Shown in pieces: positions 9,964 to 19,897 of a DNA stretch of 64,000 nt. Position numbers and translations under genes: made by a program. The stretch is from contig JAHCHY010000016.1 in assembly GCA_026129485.1 (NCBI GenBank), forward strand, positions 1 through 64,000. The letters are read 5' to 3'. The stretch is from Cyclobacteriaceae bacterium (GTDB taxonomy: Bacteria; Bacteroidota; Bacteroidia; Cytophagales; Cyclobacteriaceae). The notes beneath the pieces were generated by a model. The model was not told the DNA's origin. It saw only the letters and a list, made by a program, of their open reading frames with translations, and made no database searches. Position 1 is the stretch's first letter. Each line of letters opens with the position of its first letter.

Positions 9964-10545
9964 TCACTTCCCTTTATTTCTTTTCTCTATTCTTGCTTTG
10001 GTCATTCTTTCCCGTAAACCACCCTCTTTAAGGAAGGCCGCTTCAAGTTGTTTTATCTGCTGACTTAATAGATAAGTAGTAATTTTTATCAAAGTTATCA
10101 TGGCATTGGCACAAATCTCGGGATTTTCATGCTCAATAGCCCTTTTAAAAGTTTCGTAAGTAGGTTTGGGGGTACTGCGATTAAGCTCACGCAAACGGGC
10201 GACCAGCCGATGTTCCTTTTCCCAGGCAGGCAGCCTTTGAGTGCGTAAAAAATCTTCATAATCTATAAGCAGTTCTTCCAAACTGGCACGGGCTACATTA
10301 GTAAGTTTAATTTCCATTTCTTTAGATGTACCAGAAGCTACGCTTGCCTCGGCAATGTTTTGCTTGCCACTACGAGCTGCCTGCACCATTTGCCCTACAG
10401 TACGATCGTACTTATTGAAGAATCGATTGGTAAAATAAACCGTGCCGTCATAAATGATCTCTGCTTTTTGGTAGCTGAATAAATTACGGTAACCACCATG
10501 CGCGGGGATAAAGCCTTCGGTATCTTCTGATGTGTGGCTACTCAT
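9964..10545 (-). CDS. Four-helix-bundle suffix-domain protein (S23/Avd-like)
   Basis: 193 residues, almost entirely helical and rich in Lys/Arg/Glu. The core region LFSYQKAEIIYDGTVYF, then DRTVGQMVQAARSGKQNIAEA, matches the four-helix-bundle family related to the proteins encoded in 23S rRNA intervening sequences and to Avd of diversity-generating retroelements. The longer C-terminal helix (ITTYLLSQQIKQLEAAFLKE) fits the suffix-domain subgroup. These proteins bind nucleic acid in the studied cases; the role of this one is unknown. No reverse transcriptase or variable repeat is nearby, so a diversity-generating retroelement is not supported. Inverted 13-base repeats lie on both sides. Confidence 0.85.
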   Translation of the reverse strand: MSSHTSEDTEGFIPAHGGYRNLFSYQKAEIIYDGTVYFTNRFFNKYDRTVGQMVQAARSGKQNIAEASVASGTSKEMEIKLTNVARASLEELLIDYEDFLRTQRLPAWEKEHRLVARLRELNRSTPKPTYETFKRAIEHENPEICANAMITLIKITTYLLSQQIKQLEAAFLKEGGLRERMTKARIEKRNKGK

Positions 10546-10702: not shown

Positions 10703-11279
10703 TCAAGCTTCTATAAAGACATCAGGTCGTTTTCTACGAATCTCTGCCAAACTTTTGTCTTTAACGTAAATTCCCTTAATTACCAACCTTGTCAATGATC
10801 TGCAAAGATAAATGCTCCCCAGTGAAGAAATTTTTGTAAACGAAATATCTAAATCAGTTATTCTCTTAAAATGATGGATAAGATTCAACGAGTCTAAGTT
10901 CGAGTTAGCCAATTCCAAAACCCTAAGTGATTCTCTTGAATTCCATAAATCTTGTAAGGAATTAAAACCCGAATGATCTCCGGAAAATCTGGCTAACCTT
11001 GATAATTTAGCAAGCGGCACATAGCTTTTAAAATTAGTGCTGTTTGCTATTATCTCGGTTAAAAATGAATATTTTTCAATCTCTTTAATATCCTTAAATT
11101 GGTGTACCTGAAATATTCAAATTGGATAATTTATCAGGGTTATCGGGAAGCCTTAAAATAGGAGCTTTACAATACGAAATATTAAGAGTTTTTAGATTCA
11201 CAAGATCTGTAATAGGGTAAAATGACTCGCAATTTGTGTTTGATATGTTTAAACTTTGAATATTAAAAGCTCTTTTAAA
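10703..11279 (-). pseudogene. Leucine-rich-repeat tail of the helicase gene, separated by frame changes
   Basis: Three reading segments on the minus strand continue one leucine-rich-repeat domain. The helicase frame ends at 11249. A -1 frame from about 11279 reads IQSLNISNTNCESFYPITDL and LVNLKTLNISYCKAPILRLP, and ends LSNLNISGTPI at the stop 11094-11096. From about 11098 a third segment reads FKDIKEIEKYSFLTEIIANS and then continues open to 10703 (LRVLELANSNLDSLNLI; ITDLDISFTKISSLGSIYL). The third segment is back in the helicase frame, so the two shifts cancel. The repeats have the L-x-x-L-x-L/I-S/A-x-T/N pattern. The 105-codon open frame ending at 10703 begins only at an internal GTG and is unlikely to be a separate gene. 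Confidence 0.75.
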
Positions 11280-12670
11280 TTCCTGATAGACTTAACTGAC
11301 ATTCTTGATAAATCTATCTCTTTCAATTTCCAGATATTCTGAATTAATTTTTGTGGATTCAAATCAGCATCATAAGCAAATCTTTTTGTAAAATACTCTC
11401 GTATCTCAGGAGTAAGTTTTTCCAACCAGACTTCATCCAGTTTACATGCATTGCCAGCAGGTGGTTCTGGTTCATCAACCTGAATCATTATCCTTTCATC
11501 TTCTGGCGGTCTTGTCGGCTCGGAATCCTTACCTGAATCCGGTTCAGGGGGTTCAGTCCCATCATCTCCGGCCTCCAATGTCCACTTTCTATCCGATTTT
11601 ACTGATCCAAATTCATCATAACAACAGGCGCTATCTAAGATTAGGGCATGCCTGCCATCCTGTTTGGGCCTAAGTACCCGGCCTACCTGCTGAAGATAAA
11701 GTGTTATCGATTTAGTCGGTCGTACCAATTGAACTATCTCAGCATCAGGGCAATCGAATCCTTCAGTAACAATTCCAACATTGCAGAGTACCGAAATTAA
11801 GCCATTGTTAAAATCGCTTAATATATTCTTTCGCATTTCTTTTGGTGTGTCTCCATCCAAATGAGCCGCTTTAATTCCTTTCCTGTTAAATCTGGCAACT
11901 AATGACTCTGAATGCTTAATATTTACGGCAAATACTATTGACTTTGTATAGTTACCTCTGTATTTCAAATAACTTTCCACAGCATCTGACATATAACCTT
12001 CATTGCTCATCAATTGCGCAAGCTTAACCTCATCAAAATCGTTGGTCAATTTATCAATCGGTATGTCGCTCAATTTCCTTTTTACATCATAATAACATGC
12101 TGTTTTATAATGTTCCACATTGGCTAAATACCCCCGTTCAATAAACTCTTTAATACTACATGATTGAACAAGTGTGCCAAAAATGCCTGCGAAGCCCTTA
12201 CCATCGGTACGTCTTGGTGTTGCAGTAACACCTAAAACCAGAGTGTTTTTGGATTTATAATGACTCAATAAATCAAGATATGTTTCAGAAGGGGTATGGT
12301 GTGCTTCATCTATAACAATCAATGATATGTTCCGAAGAAAATCAAGTTTACCTTTACGCCTGATTAAAGTTTGTACTGTAGCAATTTGAATCTGGTTATC
12401 TGGTTTGCTTTCCGTTCCTGCCATTATCTTACCAACCGAGGGAATTAAAAAACTTTTTAACCTTTCAACTGTTTGATAAACAAGTTCACGCTTGTGGGTT
12501 AGAATAAGTATCCTTGATCCTGTGTTTTTTAACCTATGCCTCTTTATGATTTCACAAAAAACATTGGTTTTACCTGTACCCGTTGGCATTTGAAGCAAAA
12601 TGCTATCGTGAAACTTCCATTCCTCTTCAATCTTATTTATGACTTCTACTTGGTACGGCCTCAATTCCAT
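11249..12670 (-). CDS. DEAD/DEAH-box superfamily 2 helicase, truncated by frameshift before an LRR tail
   Basis: 473 residues. The Q-motif-like start MELRPYQVEVI is followed by Walker A PTGTGKT (29-35), DEAH at 121-124 (VIDEAHH) and TATPRR at 149-154. The second RecA domain ends in QQVGRVLRP (near 340). This set resembles RadD/YejH-type helicases that remodel DNA or branched junctions with ATP. An acidic Pro-rich linker (about 375-410, with PPEPDSGKDSEP) leads to the start of a leucine-rich repeat (WKLKEIDLSRMSVKSIRNLK). The frame then breaks; the continuation lies downstream in other frames. The gene is visibly more AT-rich than its neighbours, which suggests horizontal transfer. The helicase part is intact; whether the cell makes the full fusion is unclear. 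Confidence 0.85.
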   Translation of the reverse strand: MELRPYQVEVINKIEEEWKFHDSILLQMPTGTGKTNVFCEIIKRHRLKNTGSRILILTHKRELVYQTVERLKSFLIPSVGKIMAGTESKPDNQIQIATVQTLIRRKGKLDFLRNISLIVIDEAHHTPSETYLDLLSHYKSKNTLVLGVTATPRRTDGKGFAGIFGTLVQSCSIKEFIERGYLANVEHYKTACYYDVKRKLSDIPIDKLTNDFDEVKLAQLMSNEGYMSDAVESYLKYRGNYTKSIVFAVNIKHSESLVARFNRKGIKAAHLDGDTPKEMRKNILSDFNNGLISVLCNVGIVTEGFDCPDAEIVQLVRPTKSITLYLQQVGRVLRPKQDGRHALILDSACCYDEFGSVKSDRKWTLEAGDDGTEPPEPDSGKDSEPTRPPEDERIMIQVDEPEPPAGNACKLDEVWLEKLTPEIREYFTKRFAYDADLNPQKLIQNIWKLKEIDLSRMSVKSIRNLKELLIFKV

Positions 12671-13427: not shown

Positions 13428-14615
13428 TCACTCAAAAAAGCAAACCGAACCGCCCACCCAGGTTTTATCCTTATTGTACTTTACACCAATCATATCGCCC
13501 CGGCTCAGGCGCGCCAGGTTGGTGATGAGCTGCGGACGGGGTTCGCCTTCGTTCCAGGTAAACAACAACCGGATCTCGGTTTTAACCAAGCCATCAGGGG
13601 CCTGGATAACCGGTTCGTAATGCACCTTGCGTTGCAGCATAAAGTTTTTTCGTTCGGCTACCGGTATCGCATCCAGGTCGGCTTGCGTTACATGAAAGAT
13701 TACACCGCTTCCCGAAAAAGAAAAAAGCGGCTTTAATACATAATCCTCCAGGTTACCGGGCCATGCTGTGTATTCATTCAAAAATTTACATTCGGGCACG
13801 GCACTGCTTTGCACAAACGGCATGGTGTATTTGCTGATATAGAAAAACCAGTTCGGGTGCCCGGCCCACTCCACATCCACATCTTCGGTTAAATGAAATT
13901 CTGTTTTCAGGTCTTTTTGTGCGAGCAGCTCATCAAAAATCACGCGATTATAAATGCGATGCACGGGAATTTCTATCCCCTTTCGTTTGTAATACAATTT
14001 CCGGCCCCGAACGATCACATCACCCAAATGCACCGGTGTAACACCCAAGTGTCTTTGAGTAATCAGAAAATCAATGGCTGTATTCTGCTGCAGCGGATTT
14101 ATCTCCAGCAGAATTACATGATCGGGATCGTGATCTTTAACAATCACCTCGCGGATTCGCTGCCAGTATTCTTTTGAATTTAATCCAAAATGAAAATGCA
14201 AATCGTCAGGAATGCGGTAATACTCACGGAATTTATTTCCCAAAAAATCCTGGTAGCCAAACAGCGAAGGGAAGCCCTGCATTTCAATCAGGCGGGGCAC
14301 GCGCTCACCATTCTCGGTGCATACGGCAAAGTCCAGCGCAATAAACAAGGCGTTAGCTGTTTCGTTGGGCACCCGCACATTTGCCGGAAGCGCACCCTGC
14401 ATTTTACCTTTAAAGTCAGGCTTTACGATTACATCTATAATTTCACCGGCTGCCTTAAAAAGCTTTGCGCCAAACTCCTTATCCACAAACACCGGGCTTT
14501 CCGCTACCCGAAACGGAATTTTGTACTGAAACTCATTGTTCAGATCGGCAATAAATTTTTTATACTTCTCTTCCGAGAACTGCTGGTTGAATTGCTGTCG
14601 GGCGCTGGCAATCAT
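13428..14615 (-). CDS. ATP-grasp-like protein of an amidoligase cluster, unknown function
   Basis: 395 residues, last gene of the five-gene cluster. The C-terminal third looks like an ATP-grasp nucleotide site: DYVLKPLFSFSGSGVIFHV (Lys plus Gly-rich loop), NFMLQRKVHYEPVI (hinge-like strand) and LVKTEIRLLFTWNEG. The N-terminal half carries RLIEMQGFPSLFGYQ and VILLEINPLQQNTAIDFL; with these before the ATP-site motifs, the order resembles circularly permuted ATP-grasp proteins. The fold assignment is inferred from motifs. The start ATG overlaps the stop of the amidotransferase gene by 4 bases (ATGA), so translation is probably coupled. No signal peptide is seen, so it is cytoplasmic. Confidence 0.7.
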   Translation of the reverse strand: MIASARQQFNQQFSEEKYKKFIADLNNEFQYKIPFRVAESPVFVDKEFGAKLFKAAGEIIDVIVKPDFKGKMQGALPANVRVPNETANALFIALDFAVCTENGERVPRLIEMQGFPSLFGYQDFLGNKFREYYRIPDDLHFHFGLNSKEYWQRIREVIVKDHDPDHVILLEINPLQQNTAIDFLITQRHLGVTPVHLGDVIVRGRKLYYKRKGIEIPVHRIYNRVIFDELLAQKDLKTEFHLTEDVDVEWAGHPNWFFYISKYTMPFVQSSAVPECKFLNEYTAWPGNLEDYVLKPLFSFSGSGVIFHVTQADLDAIPVAERKNFMLQRKVHYEPVIQAPDGLVKTEIRLLFTWNEGEPRPQLITNLARLSRGDMIGVKYNKDKTWVGGSVCFFE

Positions 14616-15451
14616 AAAGAAACGGAGCTTAAGCGATTACGCAGGGCTAACATTAAAAACCGCGGCACTACGGTAGCGTAGGTAAGCATAATCTTATCCG
14701 GATCGGTGAGGTGGTTTAGCATCTCCCAATATTTTTTTTCACCGTGCTTTTCAATTACATGCGCTTTTTTGTCCTCGCGTAATAAATACATGCGCATACC
14801 TGCGGCATCGGCTTCCGGGTGAAATTGCATACCGATGATGGCATCGTTAAAACGAATGGACATCACGGCTCTTTCAAGATCAATATGCGGCCGGTATTTT
14901 TCAATGCATAACAGGGCGCCTCCTTCGGCTTCAATTTTTTCAGCATCCGGTTGTGTAATCTGGTAATCGCGTGAATCAACGGCCCACATCGGGTCGCCTA
15001 ACGAGCGAAACAAAGGATCGTGTAGCCCCTCGGTGGTCTTATGAATTGGCATTACGCCAAACGAAGTTGATTTCCGCTTCGACACGGTTCCTAACCCGTA
15101 GTAACGACAATAAATCTGAAAGCTGTGGCAAATCAACAGCACATGCTTCTTCCTGTCGGGATGTTGCCGGTTATGCGCTTTGATGGAGTCCACGAGGTTA
15201 AAGTAACGCTCTTCCCACAACGAGCCGGCACTATCGAGCGGACTGCCCGGCCCGCCTGAAGAAATGAAAGCATCGAAGCTTAAATCGGGTATTTCGTTTT
15301 TGCCGCGCACATCAAATATCTCATACACCATGTTGAGCTGGCAATCGCTGGCGAAACTTGAGATCAGTTGTTTGATGCCGCGCATCCCTTCGTTCGGTTC
15401 GCCCTCATATAAATCGAGCACGGCTATTTTGATCTGGCTTTCCTGAGTCAA
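14612..15451 (-). CDS. Class I glutamine amidotransferase-like protein
   Basis: 279 residues from a TTG start (no suitable ATG; it begins 10 bases after the ligase stop). The GAT1 fold is supported by DAFISSGGPGSPLD (oxyanion strand), the nucleophile Cys108 in VLLICHSFQ, and His211 with Glu213 in GMQFHPEAD, so the catalytic triad is complete. The nucleophile elbow is C-H-S-F rather than the common C-x-G-x-Q. The family releases ammonia from glutamine or hydrolyses gamma-glutamyl bonds. Here it sits between a YbdK-like ligase and an ATP-grasp-like protein, so it may supply ammonia for an amide bond or trim a gamma-glutamyl product. Both are inferences. Confidence 0.85.
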   Translation of the reverse strand: MTQESQIKIAVLDLYEGEPNEGMRGIKQLISSFASDCQLNMVYEIFDVRGKNEIPDLSFDAFISSGGPGSPLDSAGSLWEERYFNLVDSIKAHNRQHPDRKKHVLLICHSFQIYCRYYGLGTVSKRKSTSFGVMPIHKTTEGLHDPLFRSLGDPMWAVDSRDYQITQPDAEKIEAEGGALLCIEKYRPHIDLERAVMSIRFNDAIIGMQFHPEADAAGMRMYLLREDKKAHVIEKHGEKKYWEMLNHLTDPDKIMLTYATVVPRFLMLALRNRLSSVSL

Positions 15452-15461
15452 TGGAGTTGGT

Positions 15462-16559
15462 TTAAATTCCGCGCAGGGTTTCGTCTGTTATATAGTCAAC
15501 CACTTTTTCCAGGCTTCCGGTTTCCCGATACACAGCCAGTTGCCTGTCGGCACCGGTACCCTGCTCTAATATGGTGCGAATATAATTGATCGCGTTGCGG
15601 CTGCCAAGCTCATCCACCACATCATCCACAAAATCGAGCAGCTCTAAAATCAATGCGCGTGTATCCAGCTCAGCCTGCTTGCCAAAATCAATCAGCCTGC
15701 CATCGATTCCATAACGCGATGCGCGCCATTTGTTTTCATTGATGAGCGCGCGTGTGTACATAATGAAGCTCATATTCTGCAAACGAAGCTTGTATAATTT
15801 TACCACCAATGCCTGGAACACTGCCGTAATGGCAACGGTTTCTTCCACACGCATGGGCACATCGCAAATACGAAACTCAATGGTATCAAAAAACGGATGC
15901 ACGCGTACATCCCACCAGATCTTTTTTGCGTTGTCGATGCAGTTGGTTTTGATCAGCAGGTTTACATAGTTTTTAAAATCATCCCAGCCATCAAACTTAT
16001 CAGGGATGCCTGTGCGGGGAAACTTATCAAATACTTTCGTGCGAAATGATTTAAAGCCCGTGTTGCGGCCTTCCCAGAAAGGCGAGTTGCAACTGAGCGC
16101 ATACACGTGCGGCAAAAAATAGCGCACGGTGTTTTGAATATGGATAGCCATATTCTTGTCTTTAATGCCTACATGCACATGCAACCCAAAAATGAGATTG
16201 GAACGCGCTGCTTCCTGCATCTCCTGCACAATTTCATCATAGCGCGGGTTGGGTGTAATCAACTGCTTGCTCCAGTGCGAAAACGGGTGTGTGCCCGATG
16301 CTCCGATCTTTAACCCGAGCGAACCCGCCACTTCGCTTACTACTTTACGCAGCGTGGCAATTTCCTGGTAAGCCTGTGTTACATCTTTACAAATACCGGT
16401 GCCCACCTCCACTACAGCCTGGTGCATTTCGGCTTTTACGCTGTCTTTGATAACCTGCGAGGCAAGCTCAACAATTTTCTGATCGTGCGAGGTAAGCTCC
16501 CGCGTATGCGGGTCTGTTACCATATATTCTTCTTCAACGCCCAGTGTGAAGGTTTCCAT
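15462..16559 (-). CDS. Carboxylate-amine ligase, YbdK/GCS2 family
   Basis: 365 residues, the family's usual length. Diagnostic motifs are LGVEEEYMV (6-14), AVVEVGTG and GLHVHVG (125-131), followed by RYFLPHVYALSCNSPFWEG. The family adopts the glutamine-synthetase fold and joins a carboxylate (typically the gamma-carboxyl of glutamate) to an amine with ATP; E. coli YbdK has weak gamma-glutamylcysteine ligase activity in vitro. The true substrate here is unknown. It is the middle gene of the cluster, 24 bases after the ATP-grasp gene and 10 bases before the amidotransferase gene, so a role in building a glutamyl-type amide is likely. Confidence 0.92.
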   Translation of the reverse strand: METFTLGVEEEYMVTDPHTRELTSHDQKIVELASQVIKDSVKAEMHQAVVEVGTGICKDVTQAYQEIATLRKVVSEVAGSLGLKIGASGTHPFSHWSKQLITPNPRYDEIVQEMQEAARSNLIFGLHVHVGIKDKNMAIHIQNTVRYFLPHVYALSCNSPFWEGRNTGFKSFRTKVFDKFPRTGIPDKFDGWDDFKNYVNLLIKTNCIDNAKKIWWDVRVHPFFDTIEFRICDVPMRVEETVAITAVFQALVVKLYKLRLQNMSFIMYTRALINENKWRASRYGIDGRLIDFGKQAELDTRALILELLDFVDDVVDELGSRNAINYIRTILEQGTGADRQLAVYRETGSLEKVVDYITDETLRGI

Positions 16560-16583
16560 ATACTAATAACCAACAGTTAGATT

Positions 16584-17609
16584 CTACTTGCTTTTCGGTG
16601 ATTTGGCTTTTACTTCTTTGCCGGTAGCCACTTTGGTGGCTTTGGGCTTTACCAGTCCTGCTTCAAATGCCGCTACTGAGCTGGTAACAAAAGTTCCCCA
16701 CGTAAGGTTGTCCTTGCCGGGCTTCTGAACTTGTGCACGTTCTACCGCCATCTTGGCGGCATGCTCTACCACCCAGTCAAAATTTTCCTGGCCTACGGAA
16801 TGGACATCGGCATCGGGTGCAGGGTTGCAGAAGTCAATCGCATACGGAACACCGTTGCGTACGGCCATCTCAACGGTATTGAAATCGTAACCTAACGCAT
16901 TGCATAAATCCAGCACGTAGTCGCGCACTTTTTTCAGCAGCTTTTCAGATGCGGGCCCGTTGTTGCTCTGGTAACGCAAGTGATGCGGATTACGCGGCTC
17001 GTATTGCATAATGCGCACGTACTTTCTGCCGAGGCAATAGCAACGGAAATATTCCTCAAAGATGATCTCTTCCTGCAGCATCATCACCAACTGGCCGGTT
17101 TCGGCATAGGCTTTAAAAAAATCGTCCATATTGTTGAGCTTGTACACGCTCTTCCATCCGCCACCGGCATGGGGCTTCATATAAGCCGGCCAGCCGATGT
17201 GCTCAAATATTTTTTCCCAGCTTAACGGAAATTTCAGGTTGCTGAAGGATGCTTCACCTGTATCGGCAGGGCGCTCGTGCGAAGGTAGTATAACGGTTTT
17301 GGGAACCGGTACGCCAATCTTAACGGCAAGCGCATTGTTAAAAAACTTTTCATCGGCACTCCACCAGAACGGGTTGTTGATCACAGCCGTGCCGGATATA
17401 GCCGCATTTTTCAGGTAAGCCCTGTAAAAGGGAACATCCTGTGAAATACGATCGATGATTACCGCATAGTCGGTTGGCTCGCCCTGGCTTACCCTATCTA
17501 CCAGCACGGGCTCTGCTATAATATCTTTTAACCCCATCTTGTTAATGCGCTCGACAAAGGCTTCAGGGAAAGAGCGTTCCATGCCGTGCAGTATTCCGAT
17601 TTTTTTCAT
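16584..17609 (-). CDS. ATP-grasp ligase, unknown substrate
   Basis: 341 residues. ATP-grasp features are visible: WPAYMKPHAGGGWKSVYKL (nucleotide-binding Lys and Gly loop, about 148-166), MMLQEEIIFEEYFRCYCLG (hinge and phosphate-binding strand), and FNTVEMAVRNGVPYAIDFCN with NPAPD (metal-binding Asp and Asn). The overall layout resembles RimK and D-Ala-D-Ala ligases. The C-terminus ends in a Lys-rich tail (about 320-341) beyond the fold. ATP-grasp enzymes activate a carboxylate as acyl phosphate and couple it to an amine or thiol. Second gene of the cluster, 52 bases after the esterase gene. Confidence 0.85.
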   Translation of the reverse strand: MKKIGILHGMERSFPEAFVERINKMGLKDIIAEPVLVDRVSQGEPTDYAVIIDRISQDVPFYRAYLKNAAISGTAVINNPFWWSADEKFFNNALAVKIGVPVPKTVILPSHERPADTGEASFSNLKFPLSWEKIFEHIGWPAYMKPHAGGGWKSVYKLNNMDDFFKAYAETGQLVMMLQEEIIFEEYFRCYCLGRKYVRIMQYEPRNPHHLRYQSNNGPASEKLLKKVRDYVLDLCNALGYDFNTVEMAVRNGVPYAIDFCNPAPDADVHSVGQENFDWVVEHAAKMAVERAQVQKPGKDNLTWGTFVTSSVAAFEAGLVKPKATKVATGKEVKAKSPKSK

Positions 17610-17661
17610 GCGTAAAAATTTTAGGTGTTTGAATTATTTCTTTTTTATGATTGTATAAAAG

Positions 17662-18372
17662 CTACCGGATAAGGGACAAATAATGCGGGAACATTTCGCG
17701 CCATGCGGGCCAGTCGTGCGGGGCATTCTGGCGTACATCCAGCCAGTAGTGCACACCCTTGTTCTGCAGGATGTTGGCCATTTTTACATTGGCATCCCAG
17801 CACATATCGTGTGTGCCGGTGCCCAGCACTACATACATATCGGCAAAGTAGGGGTTATGCGCACCGGGAATAAAATCGAGCGGATTGTTGAAGTACACAT
17901 TATCATCGTAATATCCGTCCAGCTGATCTTTGATATCGAATGCCGCACCCATGTTAAACACGTACTTCACTACTTCGGGGTGCTTAAATGCAAAGTTGGT
18001 AGCATGATAGCCGCCAAAGCTGCAGCCCGCAGTGGCCACGCGCCTCACGCCTGTTTCGTGCTGTGCTAATGGCACCAGCTCATCCAGCAACATCAGGTCG
18101 TACCAGGTATGATTGCGCACCCGGTCGGCCGGATGAACATTTTTATTGTACCAGCTCATTTCATCAATTCCATCCACACAATAGATCTTAACCAGGCCTT
18201 CATCTAAAAACCAGGCAACGCTATCAATCAGCTTAAAATCTTTGTTTTCGTTATAATGCCCCATAGAGGTAGGAAACAGGATAACCGGGTAACCGCGTGT
18301 GCCAAAGGCCAGCACTTCAATATCGCGGCTCAGGCGGGGCGAATACCATTTATGATAATGTTCGTGCGGCAT
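17662..18372 (-). CDS. Esterase-family alpha/beta hydrolase (first gene of amidoligase cluster)
   Basis: 236 residues. The nucleophile elbow is GCSFGG with Ser118, and the late His219 is in NAPHDWPAW. The sequence matches the putative-esterase family (PF00756 type) found beside ATP-grasp genes. No signal peptide is present, so it acts in the cytoplasm. It is the first gene of the minus-strand cluster and lies back to back with a second esterase gene (91 bases between starts). In such clusters hydrolases may release or edit the amide or ester product; this is inference. Confidence 0.87.
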   Translation of the reverse strand: MPHEHYHKWYSPRLSRDIEVLAFGTRGYPVILFPTSMGHYNENKDFKLIDSVAWFLDEGLVKIYCVDGIDEMSWYNKNVHPADRVRNHTWYDLMLLDELVPLAQHETGVRRVATAGCSFGGYHATNFAFKHPEVVKYVFNMGAAFDIKDQLDGYYDDNVYFNNPLDFIPGAHNPYFADMYVVLGTGTHDMCWDANVKMANILQNKGVHYWLDVRQNAPHDWPAWREMFPHYLSLIR

Positions 18373-18463
18373 AGCAAACTTCTTATTTTTGTGGCAACAA
18401 TTTTCCGTTGAAAATCGGAAATGCGTTTTAAAATAGCTATCGAATTTAATTATTTCATTCCCG

Positions 18464-19288
18464 GTGCCGGCTTCGCATTATCATCCCGAAAAACTTACCG
18501 ATATACATTCTAAGCTGCTGGAACGCGATACTGTGGTGGAAATCTTTGTTCCACAGGGGCAACGCAACCCCGAACACGGCTATCCGCTGCTCATTCTGAA
18601 TGACGGGCAGGACAGCAAGGCCATTTCGCTTGAGTCCACGCTGGAACAATTAGCCACACAAAAATCTATTCCCGATGTAATTGTGGTTGCCGTGCACGCA
18701 GGCGACCGTATGCAGGAGTACGGTGTAGCTGCCAAACCCGACTTTAAGAAGCGCGGAACAAAAGCAAAAGCCTACAGCCGTTTTATCATGACCGAGCTGA
18801 TTCCGTATATCGAATACCGGTACCCCATCTCCCGGCAACCGGCCGAACGTGCCATTGCCGGATTTTCGCTTGGCGGATTGTCGGCAGTAGATATTGGCTG
18901 GCATCATGATTACTTTGGGCGAATAGGAGCCTTCAGCGGGTCGTTCTGGTGGCGTAAACGCGATTCTGCCAGCAGGTTTTATTCCGAGCATTACGATCGC
19001 ATCATGCACCAGCAAATCCGGAAAGGAAAATACAGGCCGGGATTAAAGTTCTGGTTTCAGACCGGGTTGCTGGACGAACAAAGCGACCGGAATAAAAATG
19101 GAGTGATTGATTCCATTGATGATACGCTTGACCTGATCGCAGAGCTGGTTAAGAAAGGTTACCGGCCTTTTCACGACATACAATACCTGGAGCTTGCTGA
19201 TGGTGCACACGACTTGCCCACCTGGGGGCGGGCCTTGCCGGAATTTTTAAAGTGGGCATTTCCCTCTCATGCTCCTCAAAAAGTTTAA
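18464..19288 (+). CDS. Esterase-family alpha/beta hydrolase, divergent from the cluster
   Basis: 274 residues from a GTG start. The nucleophile elbow is IAGFSLGGLSA with Ser135; the catalytic His is probably in LADGAHDLPTW near residue 250. PF00756-type core with LLILNDGQD and FGRIGAFSGSFWW. There is no signal peptide. It is divergent from the related but distinct esterase at 17662-18372, sharing one short promoter region, which suggests both belong to the same pathway. Confidence 0.87.
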   Translation: MPASHYHPEKLTDIHSKLLERDTVVEIFVPQGQRNPEHGYPLLILNDGQDSKAISLESTLEQLATQKSIPDVIVVAVHAGDRMQEYGVAAKPDFKKRGTKAKAYSRFIMTELIPYIEYRYPISRQPAERAIAGFSLGGLSAVDIGWHHDYFGRIGAFSGSFWWRKRDSASRFYSEHYDRIMHQQIRKGKYRPGLKFWFQTGLLDEQSDRNKNGVIDSIDDTLDLIAELVKKGYRPFHDIQYLELADGAHDLPTWGRALPEFLKWAFPSHAPQKV

Positions 19289-19323
19289 CTATCTTTACAA
19301 CCTTCACTAATCCGATATGGCGT

Positions 19324-19554
19324 ATGGAATTAGAAAACAGGATAGTTATTGACGAAGCGATCTGTGGGGGGAAGCCCGTTATTCGCGGTAAGCGCATAAC
19401 GGTTCAAACTATTTTGGAATTTTTAAGTGCCGGGGAAAGCAGGGAAGAAATTCTGAAACAATATCCCTCGTTGGAGGATGCTGATATTGATGCCAGCCTG
19501 CGCTTTGCCTCAAATCTGATGAATCGCAATTATATCATTAAAGAGCTGGCTTAG
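19324..19554 (+). CDS. DUF433 antitoxin-like protein
   Basis: 76 residues from ATG 19324 (an upstream in-frame ATG at 19252 overlaps the esterase end and is unlikely). The DUF433 pattern is clear: RIVIDEAICGGKPVIRGKRI, TVQTILEFLSAG, then ILKQYPSLEDADIDASLRFA. The fold is a small winged helix that usually acts as the antitoxin partner of DUF5615 PIN-like proteins. The DUF5615 gene follows after 1 base. Confidence 0.88.
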   Translation: MELENRIVIDEAICGGKPVIRGKRITVQTILEFLSAGESREEILKQYPSLEDADIDASLRFASNLMNRNYIIKELA

Positions 19555-19555
19555 T

Positions 19556-19897
19556 ATGCCCAGGTTTTTAGTTGATGTAAATCTCCCCTATTATTTTTCA
19601 CTTTGGAATAATCCGGATTACATACATCAGGTTGATATTGACGATACCTGGAAAGATTCAACTATTTGGAATTATGCCCGGGAGCATAATCTTACTATAA
19701 TTTCAAAGGATAGCGATTTTTCAAATCGGGTTATGCTGCAAAGCCCACCACCTAAAGTTATCCATATCCGATTTGGCAATCTGAAAATGAAAGATTTCTT
19801 TCAACGCATGACACAAGTTTGGCCGGAAGTAATCCGGTTAAATGAAAACTACAAGCTGGTAAACATTTTTATTGATCGAATTGAAGCTATAAATTAA
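19556..19897 (+). CDS. DUF5615 PIN-like protein (putative toxin)
   Basis: 113 residues. The PIN-like pattern is MPRFLVDVNLPYYF (first acidic residue Asp7), a later acidic pair at ISKDSDFSNRV, and VIHIRFGNLK. The family is a minimal PIN fold usually paired with DUF433; toxicity as an RNase is predicted, not shown. One base separates it from the DUF433 gene, and the HAD gene begins directly after its stop, so the three may be co-transcribed. Confidence 0.85.
   Translation: MPRFLVDVNLPYYFSLWNNPDYIHQVDIDDTWKDSTIWNYAREHNLTIISKDSDFSNRVMLQSPPPKVIHIRFGNLKMKDFFQRMTQVWPEVIRLNENYKLVNIFIDRIEAIN

Follow-up and report, generated by a model that had tools for sequence, protein, structure and literature searches.

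The permuted ATP-grasp enzymes to which the locus described here can be compared include GspS, YgiC/YjfC and the eukaryotic-type glutathione synthetases. RimK and LysX/ArgX act on proteins, while the PuuA-PuuD pair salvages amines via gamma-glutamylation and hydrolysis. Amidoligase gene neighbourhoods were reportedly predicted by Iyer et al. in 2009, and the general theme that they share with the present gene set is an operon in which a number of amide ligases are combined with peptidases. No description of this gene set was recognised among the open-licence PubMed Central matches listed. Another permuted ATP-grasp enzyme is Cp1B (structure 9cjn), from fungal E-64 biosynthesis. Cp1B carries an R-x-D ... 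E-x-N set composed of R139, D141, E163 and N165, and the other enzymes used in E-64 synthesis include an oxygenase and an ANL-family amide synthetase (PMC12568646). For the YbdK/GCS2 ligases, GhExE is given as the signature (PMC2588565).

The window analysed here is a stretch of 64,000 nucleotides from a Cyclobacteriaceae bacterium, and its ORF list contains six intact genes between 13428 and 19288: A to E lie packed on the minus strand, and F diverges from them on the plus strand. The packed genes are transcribed in the direction E-D-C-B-A; A and B overlap by 4 bases, and the spacings are 10 bases for B/C, 24 for C/D and 52 for D/E. The divergent E and F are separated by 91 bases (18373..18463, unstranded), presumed to be the promoter region. 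The sequence-only reading had described six genes in this span with these strands and with the same gaps and overlap within the packed five, and the ORFs lie where it placed them. All six have dN of 0.03-0.10 and dS of 0.8-2.0 against two same-genus relatives (one NG86 dS being saturated). Among ORFs of at least 80 aa, the six genes include no NRPS module, carrier protein or precursor peptide, and none of them is a transporter. Promoter-like sites (11 versus 10.1 expected, and so no more than chance would give) and terminator-like sites (13 versus 7.6 expected) were scanned for and the scans were not used; no tandem repeats were found, and a tRNA was the sole match of the Rfam scan. A defence system was considered and rejected, the six proteins giving 0 PADLOC matches at E 0.01.

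Gene A (13428..14615, minus strand, 395 aa) is, on its predicted model, a circularly permuted ATP-grasp of the glutathione synthetase/GspS/YgiC type: the permuted fold spans the full length of the protein, and A resembles the yeast and human glutathione synthetases in the fold comparison. While sharing this predicted fold with GspS, YgiC, YjfC and the eukaryotic-type glutathione synthetases, A is only about 8-15% identical to them in the alignments and has no Pfam match with an E-value of 0.1 or lower, either to the GspS family (PF03738) or to any other. D95 and E111 are present in 62/62 homologues, Q113 replaces Asn equally in 62/62, and at position 93 Arg is not among the five commonest residues, which cover 60/62. 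With Gln for Asn and no Arg two positions before the Asp, A differs from these enzymes and, when matched by sequence and not on coordinates, also departs from the residue set of Cp1B. The genomic partners of A are likewise unlike those of GspS, YgiC, YjfC and glutathione synthetase, and neither the oxygenase nor the ANL-family synthetase of E-64 synthesis is found in the six-gene set. In one relative's locus (L107), an SSF symporter is fused to A.

Gene D (16584..17609, minus strand, 341 aa) is a RimK-type ATP-grasp according to its predicted model, with RimK and LysX/ArgX as the top matches in the fold comparison. It stays under every Pfam cut-off and far under the NCBIfam cut-offs for the RimK family (27.6 versus 143.4 bits) and LysX (26.9 versus 275.6 bits), and it carries D259-x-x-N262, conserved in 37/37 homologues, at the place where the usual motif is E-x-N. 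Assignment of D to the R2K ATP-grasps was rejected, since the Pfam match (E 0.073) is under the cut-off and RimK comes first in the fold comparison. The third ligase, C (15462..16559, minus strand, 365 aa), belongs to the YbdK/GCS2 carboxylate-amine ligases: it scores 219.2 bits for GCS2 (PF04107, cut-off 21), passes the NCBIfam model PRK13515 'carboxylate-amine ligase' (NF010039) with 532.5 versus 371 bits, and gives a profile match of E 1.5e-66 to the YbdK structure 1r8g. Its GVEEEY conforms to the GhExE signature, and E9, E10 and E11, together with H127 and H129, are identical in 32/32 aligned homologues. Like the YbdK family, C lies above the curated PRK13515 cut-off, and the family name gives no substrate; unlike the family model alone, C is tied to two ATP-grasp ligases.

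Gene B (14612..15451, minus strand, 279 aa, with a TTG start in the ORF list) is a class I glutamine-amidotransferase-like protein (GATase PF00117, 36.7 bits, cut-off 22.8), whose triad C108/H211/E213 is identical in 35/35 aligned homologues. The remaining two genes encode PF00756 esterases: E (17662..18372, minus strand, 236 aa), a small alpha/beta-hydrolase (33 bits, cut-off 22), and F (18464..19288, plus strand, 274 aa; 97.3 bits, cut-off 22), which is enterochelin-esterase-like and scores 65.8 bits for the enterochelin esterase model NF007758, under its cut-off of 222. In E, Asp189 is kept in 29/29 homologues and His219 in 27/29, while the serine of F, in a GFSLGG motif, is read from the window sequence alone. 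The esterase, GCS2 and amidotransferase families, the catalytic residues of B and the ligase motifs of C had all been named in the sequence-only reading and agree with these scores and alignments; its 'unusual ATP-grasp-like' label for A can be refined to the predicted permuted type given above. It had also described both esterase serines as intact, which is true of the window, but Ser118 of E is kept in only 26/29 homologues and lost in three.

The gene order is kept far past the host genus and far above chance. Of 111 genomes with A, 100 A-centred loci were examined, the window's own included (G010, G014, G132, G150, G175, G181, G268, G270, G301, G313 and G319 were left out). A-B-C-D-E are adjacent in 34/100 of these loci and are joined by the divergent F in 24/100; C and D adjoin in 53/53 loci holding both, D and E in 45/45, and E and F are adjacent and divergent in 24/27. 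Some genomes apparently also occur in a second set, centred on D and made of the best 80 of 580 relatives (65-93% identical), where A-B-C-D-E are adjacent in 39/80 and F is added in 30/80, C and D adjoin in 73/73 loci holding both, and E and F are adjacent and divergent in 39/40. Pedobacter, Dyadobacter and Algoriphagus are cultured genera with D among these best 80 of 580. Peptidases of the M29, M42, S33 and S10 families recur near the set, and no recurrent small protein was found beside it in 100 neighbourhoods (ORFs of at least 70 aa). A tblastn search of 72,556 plasmid records gave no hit for A or D at E 1e-5, while C matches 72 records, all below 60% identity; two plasmid regions with a C match (Paracoccus and Spirosoma), whose annotation is incomplete, have no annotated ATP-grasp or amidotransferase gene.

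Co-inheritance was scored in 296 Bacteroidota genomes, at E thresholds of 0.001 for A, 1e-30 for B and 1e-50 for C, the M29 aminopeptidase and k2, another permuted ATP-grasp. For D, 113 genomes matched at E 0.001 and five weak partial matches (G043, G085, G213, G217 and G252; E 2e-5 to 8e-4) were dropped, leaving 108 genomes (E below 1e-60), this count and some others being drawn from a scored part of the first-look candidates. A occurs in 92/296 genomes and D in 108/296, with both in 89 (Fisher 3e-52, shared ancestry ignored, as in all p values here). Since 41/89 of these pairs do not lie within 10 kb (drafts with possible contig-end splits, such as G104 and G287, included), the co-inheritance of A and D is independent of linkage; removal of the 48 linked genomes leaves p 1.5e-28. 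Among 24 genomes of the window's own genus, A and D are present in the same 17 and absent from the same 7, and at least 12 families contain genomes with both alongside genomes without any of A, B, C, D and k2. The six genes are unequal members, and their near-invariant core pairs D with a permuted ATP-grasp, either A or k2, found in 104/108 D genomes. C accompanies A in 87/92 genomes, B is missing from 37/92, and F is the member rarest near A (30/100 loci). The earlier expectation of a conserved order thus holds among Bacteroidota relatives, and the six-gene unit proposed with it stands as a conserved, co-inherited set, but not as one of equal members.

The k2 protein falls narrowly under the Pfam cut-offs for CP_ATPgrasp_2 and CP_ATPgrasp_1 (28.8 versus 32 and 19.8 versus 23.1 bits), and its profile comparison with A gives a probability of 10.6% at E 0.0029, so that the two may or may not be homologous. 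It is present in 15/15 genomes that have B and D without A, and all 70/70 B genomes carry exactly one of A and k2. The 15 strong-k2 genomes span 9 families. As none of these families yielded an A gene, a single old event could account for the A/k2 split. In the 10/10 loci examined k2 adjoins D, and in 9 it lies between D and B, whereas A lies beyond B. Because this is the place that C holds in the window, k2 may be a substitute for C, or for A and C together, and not for A alone. C is missing from 8/15 of the genomes with B, D and k2.

B and the M29 aminopeptidase also occur complementarily. All 6/6 genomes with M29 fall within the 37 that have A but no B (p 0.003 within A genomes alone, uncorrected), and 5/6 copies sit between A and C, in the place of B; in the other 31/37, no M29 protein was matched at E 1e-50. 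Since an aminopeptidase occupies its place in these five B-less loci, B is pointed to as a hydrolase, rather than an ammonia-transferring partner, as far as sequence comparison can tell.

Since the gene set is kept or lost as a unit, a small peptide-like compound is very probably among the products of these bacteria, and the genes probably constitute one NRPS-independent amide-ligation pathway to such a metabolite. The free small product foreseen in the sequence-only reading is a candidate, and a tag on a protein would be an alternative to it. This reading is based on predicted folds, intact active-site residues, gene order, co-inheritance and the complementarity of A/k2 and B/M29. In the most likely scheme, C would couple an amine to glutamate through its gamma-carboxylate, or to a similar acid, D would activate a carboxylate as acyl-phosphate and add an amino acid, and A would add the last amine or amino acid, by analogy to glutathione synthetase, GspS, YgiC and Cp1B. 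Deprotection or trimming would follow, with B taking off a gamma-glutamyl or an aminoacyl group and a peptidase perhaps doing so in some relatives, while E and F would act in ester hydrolysis or product turnover. The gamma-glutamyl step and its removal could not be universal, because C is missing from 5/92 genomes with A and from 8/15 with B, D and k2, and B from 37/92 genomes with A.

Some of the other products that can be imagined were addressed with 40 cluster-positive genomes (the first 40 in a random sample of 45 taken from the genomes that carry A, C and D) and with cluster-negative genomes drawn from those with none of the set. One is a glutathione-like redox thiol, in which C would form gamma-Glu-Cys and A or D would add the third residue; membership of C in GCS2, the resemblance of A to the yeast and human glutathione synthetases and the broad occurrence expected of a housekeeping metabolite speak for it. 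On the other hand, BshC, of bacillithiol synthesis, has matches in 38/40 cluster-positive and 40/40 cluster-negative genomes (35 and 40 above the curated cut-off), and the window's genome has one on another contig, outside the cluster. Nearly all of these genomes, whether they carry the set or not, therefore already have a thiol pathway, so that a main thiol or glutathione substitute is not favoured and, with C absent from over half of the genomes with B, D and k2, a thiol product is improbable. Alternatively, C and D would make a short peptide whose carboxylate is linked by A to a polyamine, which would parallel GspS and YgiC/YjfC. NspC, the one polyamine route probed, is above cut-off in 3/40 cluster-positive and 1/39 cluster-negative genomes and reaches 55.3 bits versus a cut-off of 409 in the window's genome; as most genomes of either group lack it, the result does not favour a spermidine conjugate. 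The Arg that Cp1B has two before the Asp is also wanting among the five commonest residues at that position of A, and a polyamine conjugate seems unlikely.

Proteins could also be the target, with D and A attaching a peptide or amine and B or a peptidase taking it off, given that the best fold matches of D are protein-modifying enzymes (entry 5zk6 is titled as RimK complexed with RpsF) and that the set has hydrolases which might undo such a tag. Such tagging would leave two esterases unexplained and finds no recurrent small protein as its target in the 100 neighbourhoods (ORFs of at least 70 aa), and we regard it as a poor prospect. Salvage of amines or peptides in the PuuA-PuuD manner would make use of a ligase, a GAT1 hydrolase, the recurrent peptidases and the symporter fused to A, but the ATP spent by three ligases is a high price for catabolism and no amine or aldehyde oxidase occurs among the classified neighbours (a minority of all neighbours), which makes it very improbable. 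Finally, each family by itself is common and multifunctional, which would suit chance neighbours of unrelated functions; the conserved order, the co-inheritance of unlinked copies and the complementarity of A and k2 contradict this, and it can practically be dismissed.

Beyond the amide-ligation pathway itself, a more tentative proposal is that about a third of the sampled Bacteroidota might make a near-housekeeping peptide-like metabolite via the RimK-type ligase and usually the YbdK ligase, with A or k2 standing in for each other and the amidotransferase-like hydrolase exchangeable for an aminopeptidase. Through these exchanges the individual steps become open to testing, since they predict one common reaction for A and k2 (or for k2 and C) and one common bond to be cut by B and by the M29 peptidase. 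A core present in 104/296 genomes, with no product recognised in the literature listed, would mean that part of a major phylum's metabolism is missing from the present picture and, if the proposal is true, current annotation would be overlooking a cofactor, stress compound or signal on the scale of the phylum.

The six genes occupy positions 13428-19288, and the ORF list confirms the layout described in the sequence-only reading, with gaps of 10, 24 and 52 bases, one 4-base overlap and a divergent gene F. The genes are A (13428-14615, minus strand), a circularly permuted ATP-grasp ORF that lies above no Pfam cut-off; B (14612-15451, minus strand), a class I amidotransferase by Pfam; C (15462-16559, minus strand), a GCS2/YbdK ligase by Pfam that is also above the NCBIfam PRK13515 cut-off; D (16584-17609, minus strand), a RimK-type ATP-grasp ORF above no Pfam cut-off; and the Pfam-assigned esterases E (17662-18372, minus strand) and F (18464-19288, plus strand). 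The order of transcription is E-D-C-B-A, the divergent gap between E and F measures 91 bases, and dN is far below dS for all six genes when compared with two same-genus relatives. The checked active-site residues are invariant among 62 aligned sequences of A, 35 of B, 32 of C and 37 of D, except for Q328 and N366 of A. The serine of E is missing in 3 of 29 homologues. These (in loci L100, L104 and L118) carry Gly, Asp and Glu in place of the nucleophilic serine and are possibly non-catalytic.

A toxin-antitoxin-like DUF433 and DUF5615 gene pair is found at 19252-19897, between F and a HAD gene. Six same-genus loci (L049-L054) have F followed by the HAD gene and lack the pair, which looks like an insertion in the window genome. 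Close to the set, a 473-aa ResIII/DEAD helicase (11249-12670) has partial PADLOC matches to a type IV restriction enzyme, and the product of 9964-10545 has a weak, below cut-off match to a 23S rRNA-intervening-sequence protein.

The expectation that the gene order would recur in relatives is borne out. For this, loci around A were taken from 100 of the 111 genomes with A and partners were sought by tblastn; two genes count as adjacent if fewer than 1600 bases separate them and their strands are as expected. The search located C in 57 of these loci, D in 56, B in 51, E in 45 and F in 30. In loci that hold both partners, C-D (53/53), D-E (45/45) and A-B (50/51) adjacency is almost without exception. 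Complete A-B-C-D-E adjacency is kept in 34 of the 100 loci, 24 of which also have the divergent F. Around D, among the best 80 of 580 relatives, A-B-C-D-E is adjacent in 39 loci, with divergent F in 30, and C-D in 73/73. Carriers among these best 80 include Runella, Arcicella, Dyadobacter, Pedobacter, Mucilaginibacter, Algoriphagus, Sediminibacterium, Cryomorpha, Thermaurantimonas and Stygiobacter, in which D is adjoined by the whole set or part of it. In locus L077 of genome G191, the gene sited beyond E in its genus mate (L076) comes right after A, B and C; the search of G191 for D, in which 7 of 13 candidates were scored, gave no match, and D and E have probably been deleted.

Co-inheritance was followed in one sample of 296 Bacteroidota genomes, where A is present in 92, B in 70, C in 103 and D in 108 (the strong ones of 113 at E 0.001). 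Genomes with A have D in 89/92 and C in 87/92 cases, and those with B have D in 69/70. The patterns with A are ABCD (50), ACD (34), ABD (4), AC (2), ABC (1) and AD (1), and those without A are BD (8), BCD (7), C alone (9) and D alone (4). Of the 89 genomes with both A and D, 41 do not have the two genes within 10 kb, a count that includes different contigs of drafts, and the association persists after removal of the 48 linked genomes (p 1.5e-28). The P values disregard shared ancestry; the patterns within families and genera are better evidence. At the thresholds used, at least 12 families mix genomes having A and D with genomes lacking A, B, C, D and k2, another permuted ATP-grasp. Among 24 genomes of the window's own genus, A and D occur together in 17 (on separate contigs in G001 and G002), and the other 7, including four that are at least 95% complete, lack both.

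All 15 genomes with B and D and without A encode k2, which is about 450-480 aa long and matches CP_ATPgrasp_2 and CP_ATPgrasp_1 below threshold. It adjoins D in all ten loci read from these genomes and lies between D and B in nine (E-D-k2-B, E not being found in all); the remaining one (G326, L239) has B on a different contig. All 70 B genomes carry either A or k2 and never both, A or k2 occurs in 104/108 D genomes, and D in 104/107 genomes with A or k2; G174 has A plus a distant k2 match (E 8e-112). Judged by occurrence, k2 is a stand-in for A. Its position is that of C in the window order and C is missing from 8 of the 15 genomes, so k2 may be a replacement for A or for both A and C. The 15 genomes come from nine families, in none of which A was found, so the split could be one old event.

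The role of B can be weighed through the genes found near or instead of it. An M29 aminopeptidase (PF02073, E <1e-50) occurs in 6/296 genomes, all among the 37 with A and without B, and five of the six copies lie between A and C, the usual place of B (L074, L092, L096, L115, L145), the sixth (G244) being unlinked. There are further recurrent peptidases, namely an S33 type found between D and E in seven own-genus and six D-centred loci (perhaps overlapping genomes), an M42 type adjoining B in L081, and an S10 type adjoining C in L240, with a homologue at the same place in L241. The inferred role of B is cleavage of an amide bond in an intermediate rather than the supply of ammonia; against this, M29 is absent at E <1e-50 from 31 of the 37 genomes with A and without B. 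Deprotection or trimming by B is somewhat less likely than not. In L240 and L241 (family f36), the neighbour of D is an aromatic amino acid lyase; about 10-14 kb away, C lies beside the S10-type carboxypeptidase gene. Families were called on L240, with homologues in L241.

Two candidate functions are not favoured. BshC, a bacillithiol gene, has matches in 38/40 cluster-positive (the window's own genome included) and 40/40 cluster-negative genomes, 35 and 40 being above cut-off; the set is not these bacteria's usual thiol pathway, BshC being near-universal with or without it. Nor is the set tied to the carboxynorspermidine route to spermidine, NspC being above cut-off in just 3/40 positives and 1/39 negatives.

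In family f40, A is accompanied by a sodium:solute symporter, fused to it in a single 867-aa ORF in L107 (6637-9240; SSF by Pfam); in L094 (7790-10369) A adjoins a similar ORF, and in L146 (7273-9950) two ORFs jointly resemble the fusion, with A in the second. The substrate of A may be imported. The steps would run C, then D, A and B, an order that is tentative and rather unlikely to be right throughout.

Many ligase-rich peptide operons of such a kind were reportedly predicted by Iyer et al. in 2009. An NRPS-independent, ligase-rich peptide pathway (E-64; PMC12568646), R2K ligase operons (PMC4431377) and a GCS2-like ligase adjoining an amidotransferase-like thiol peptidase (PMC2588565) are already known. 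Searches of open-licence PubMed Central papers showed no description of this gene set; the general kind of pathway is known, and the set is therefore regarded as a novel form of it. The genes almost certainly serve one pathway, and its product is probably a small peptide-like molecule. Overall, the balance leans towards a single NRPS-independent amide-ligation pathway that would give these bacteria a small peptide-like metabolite.
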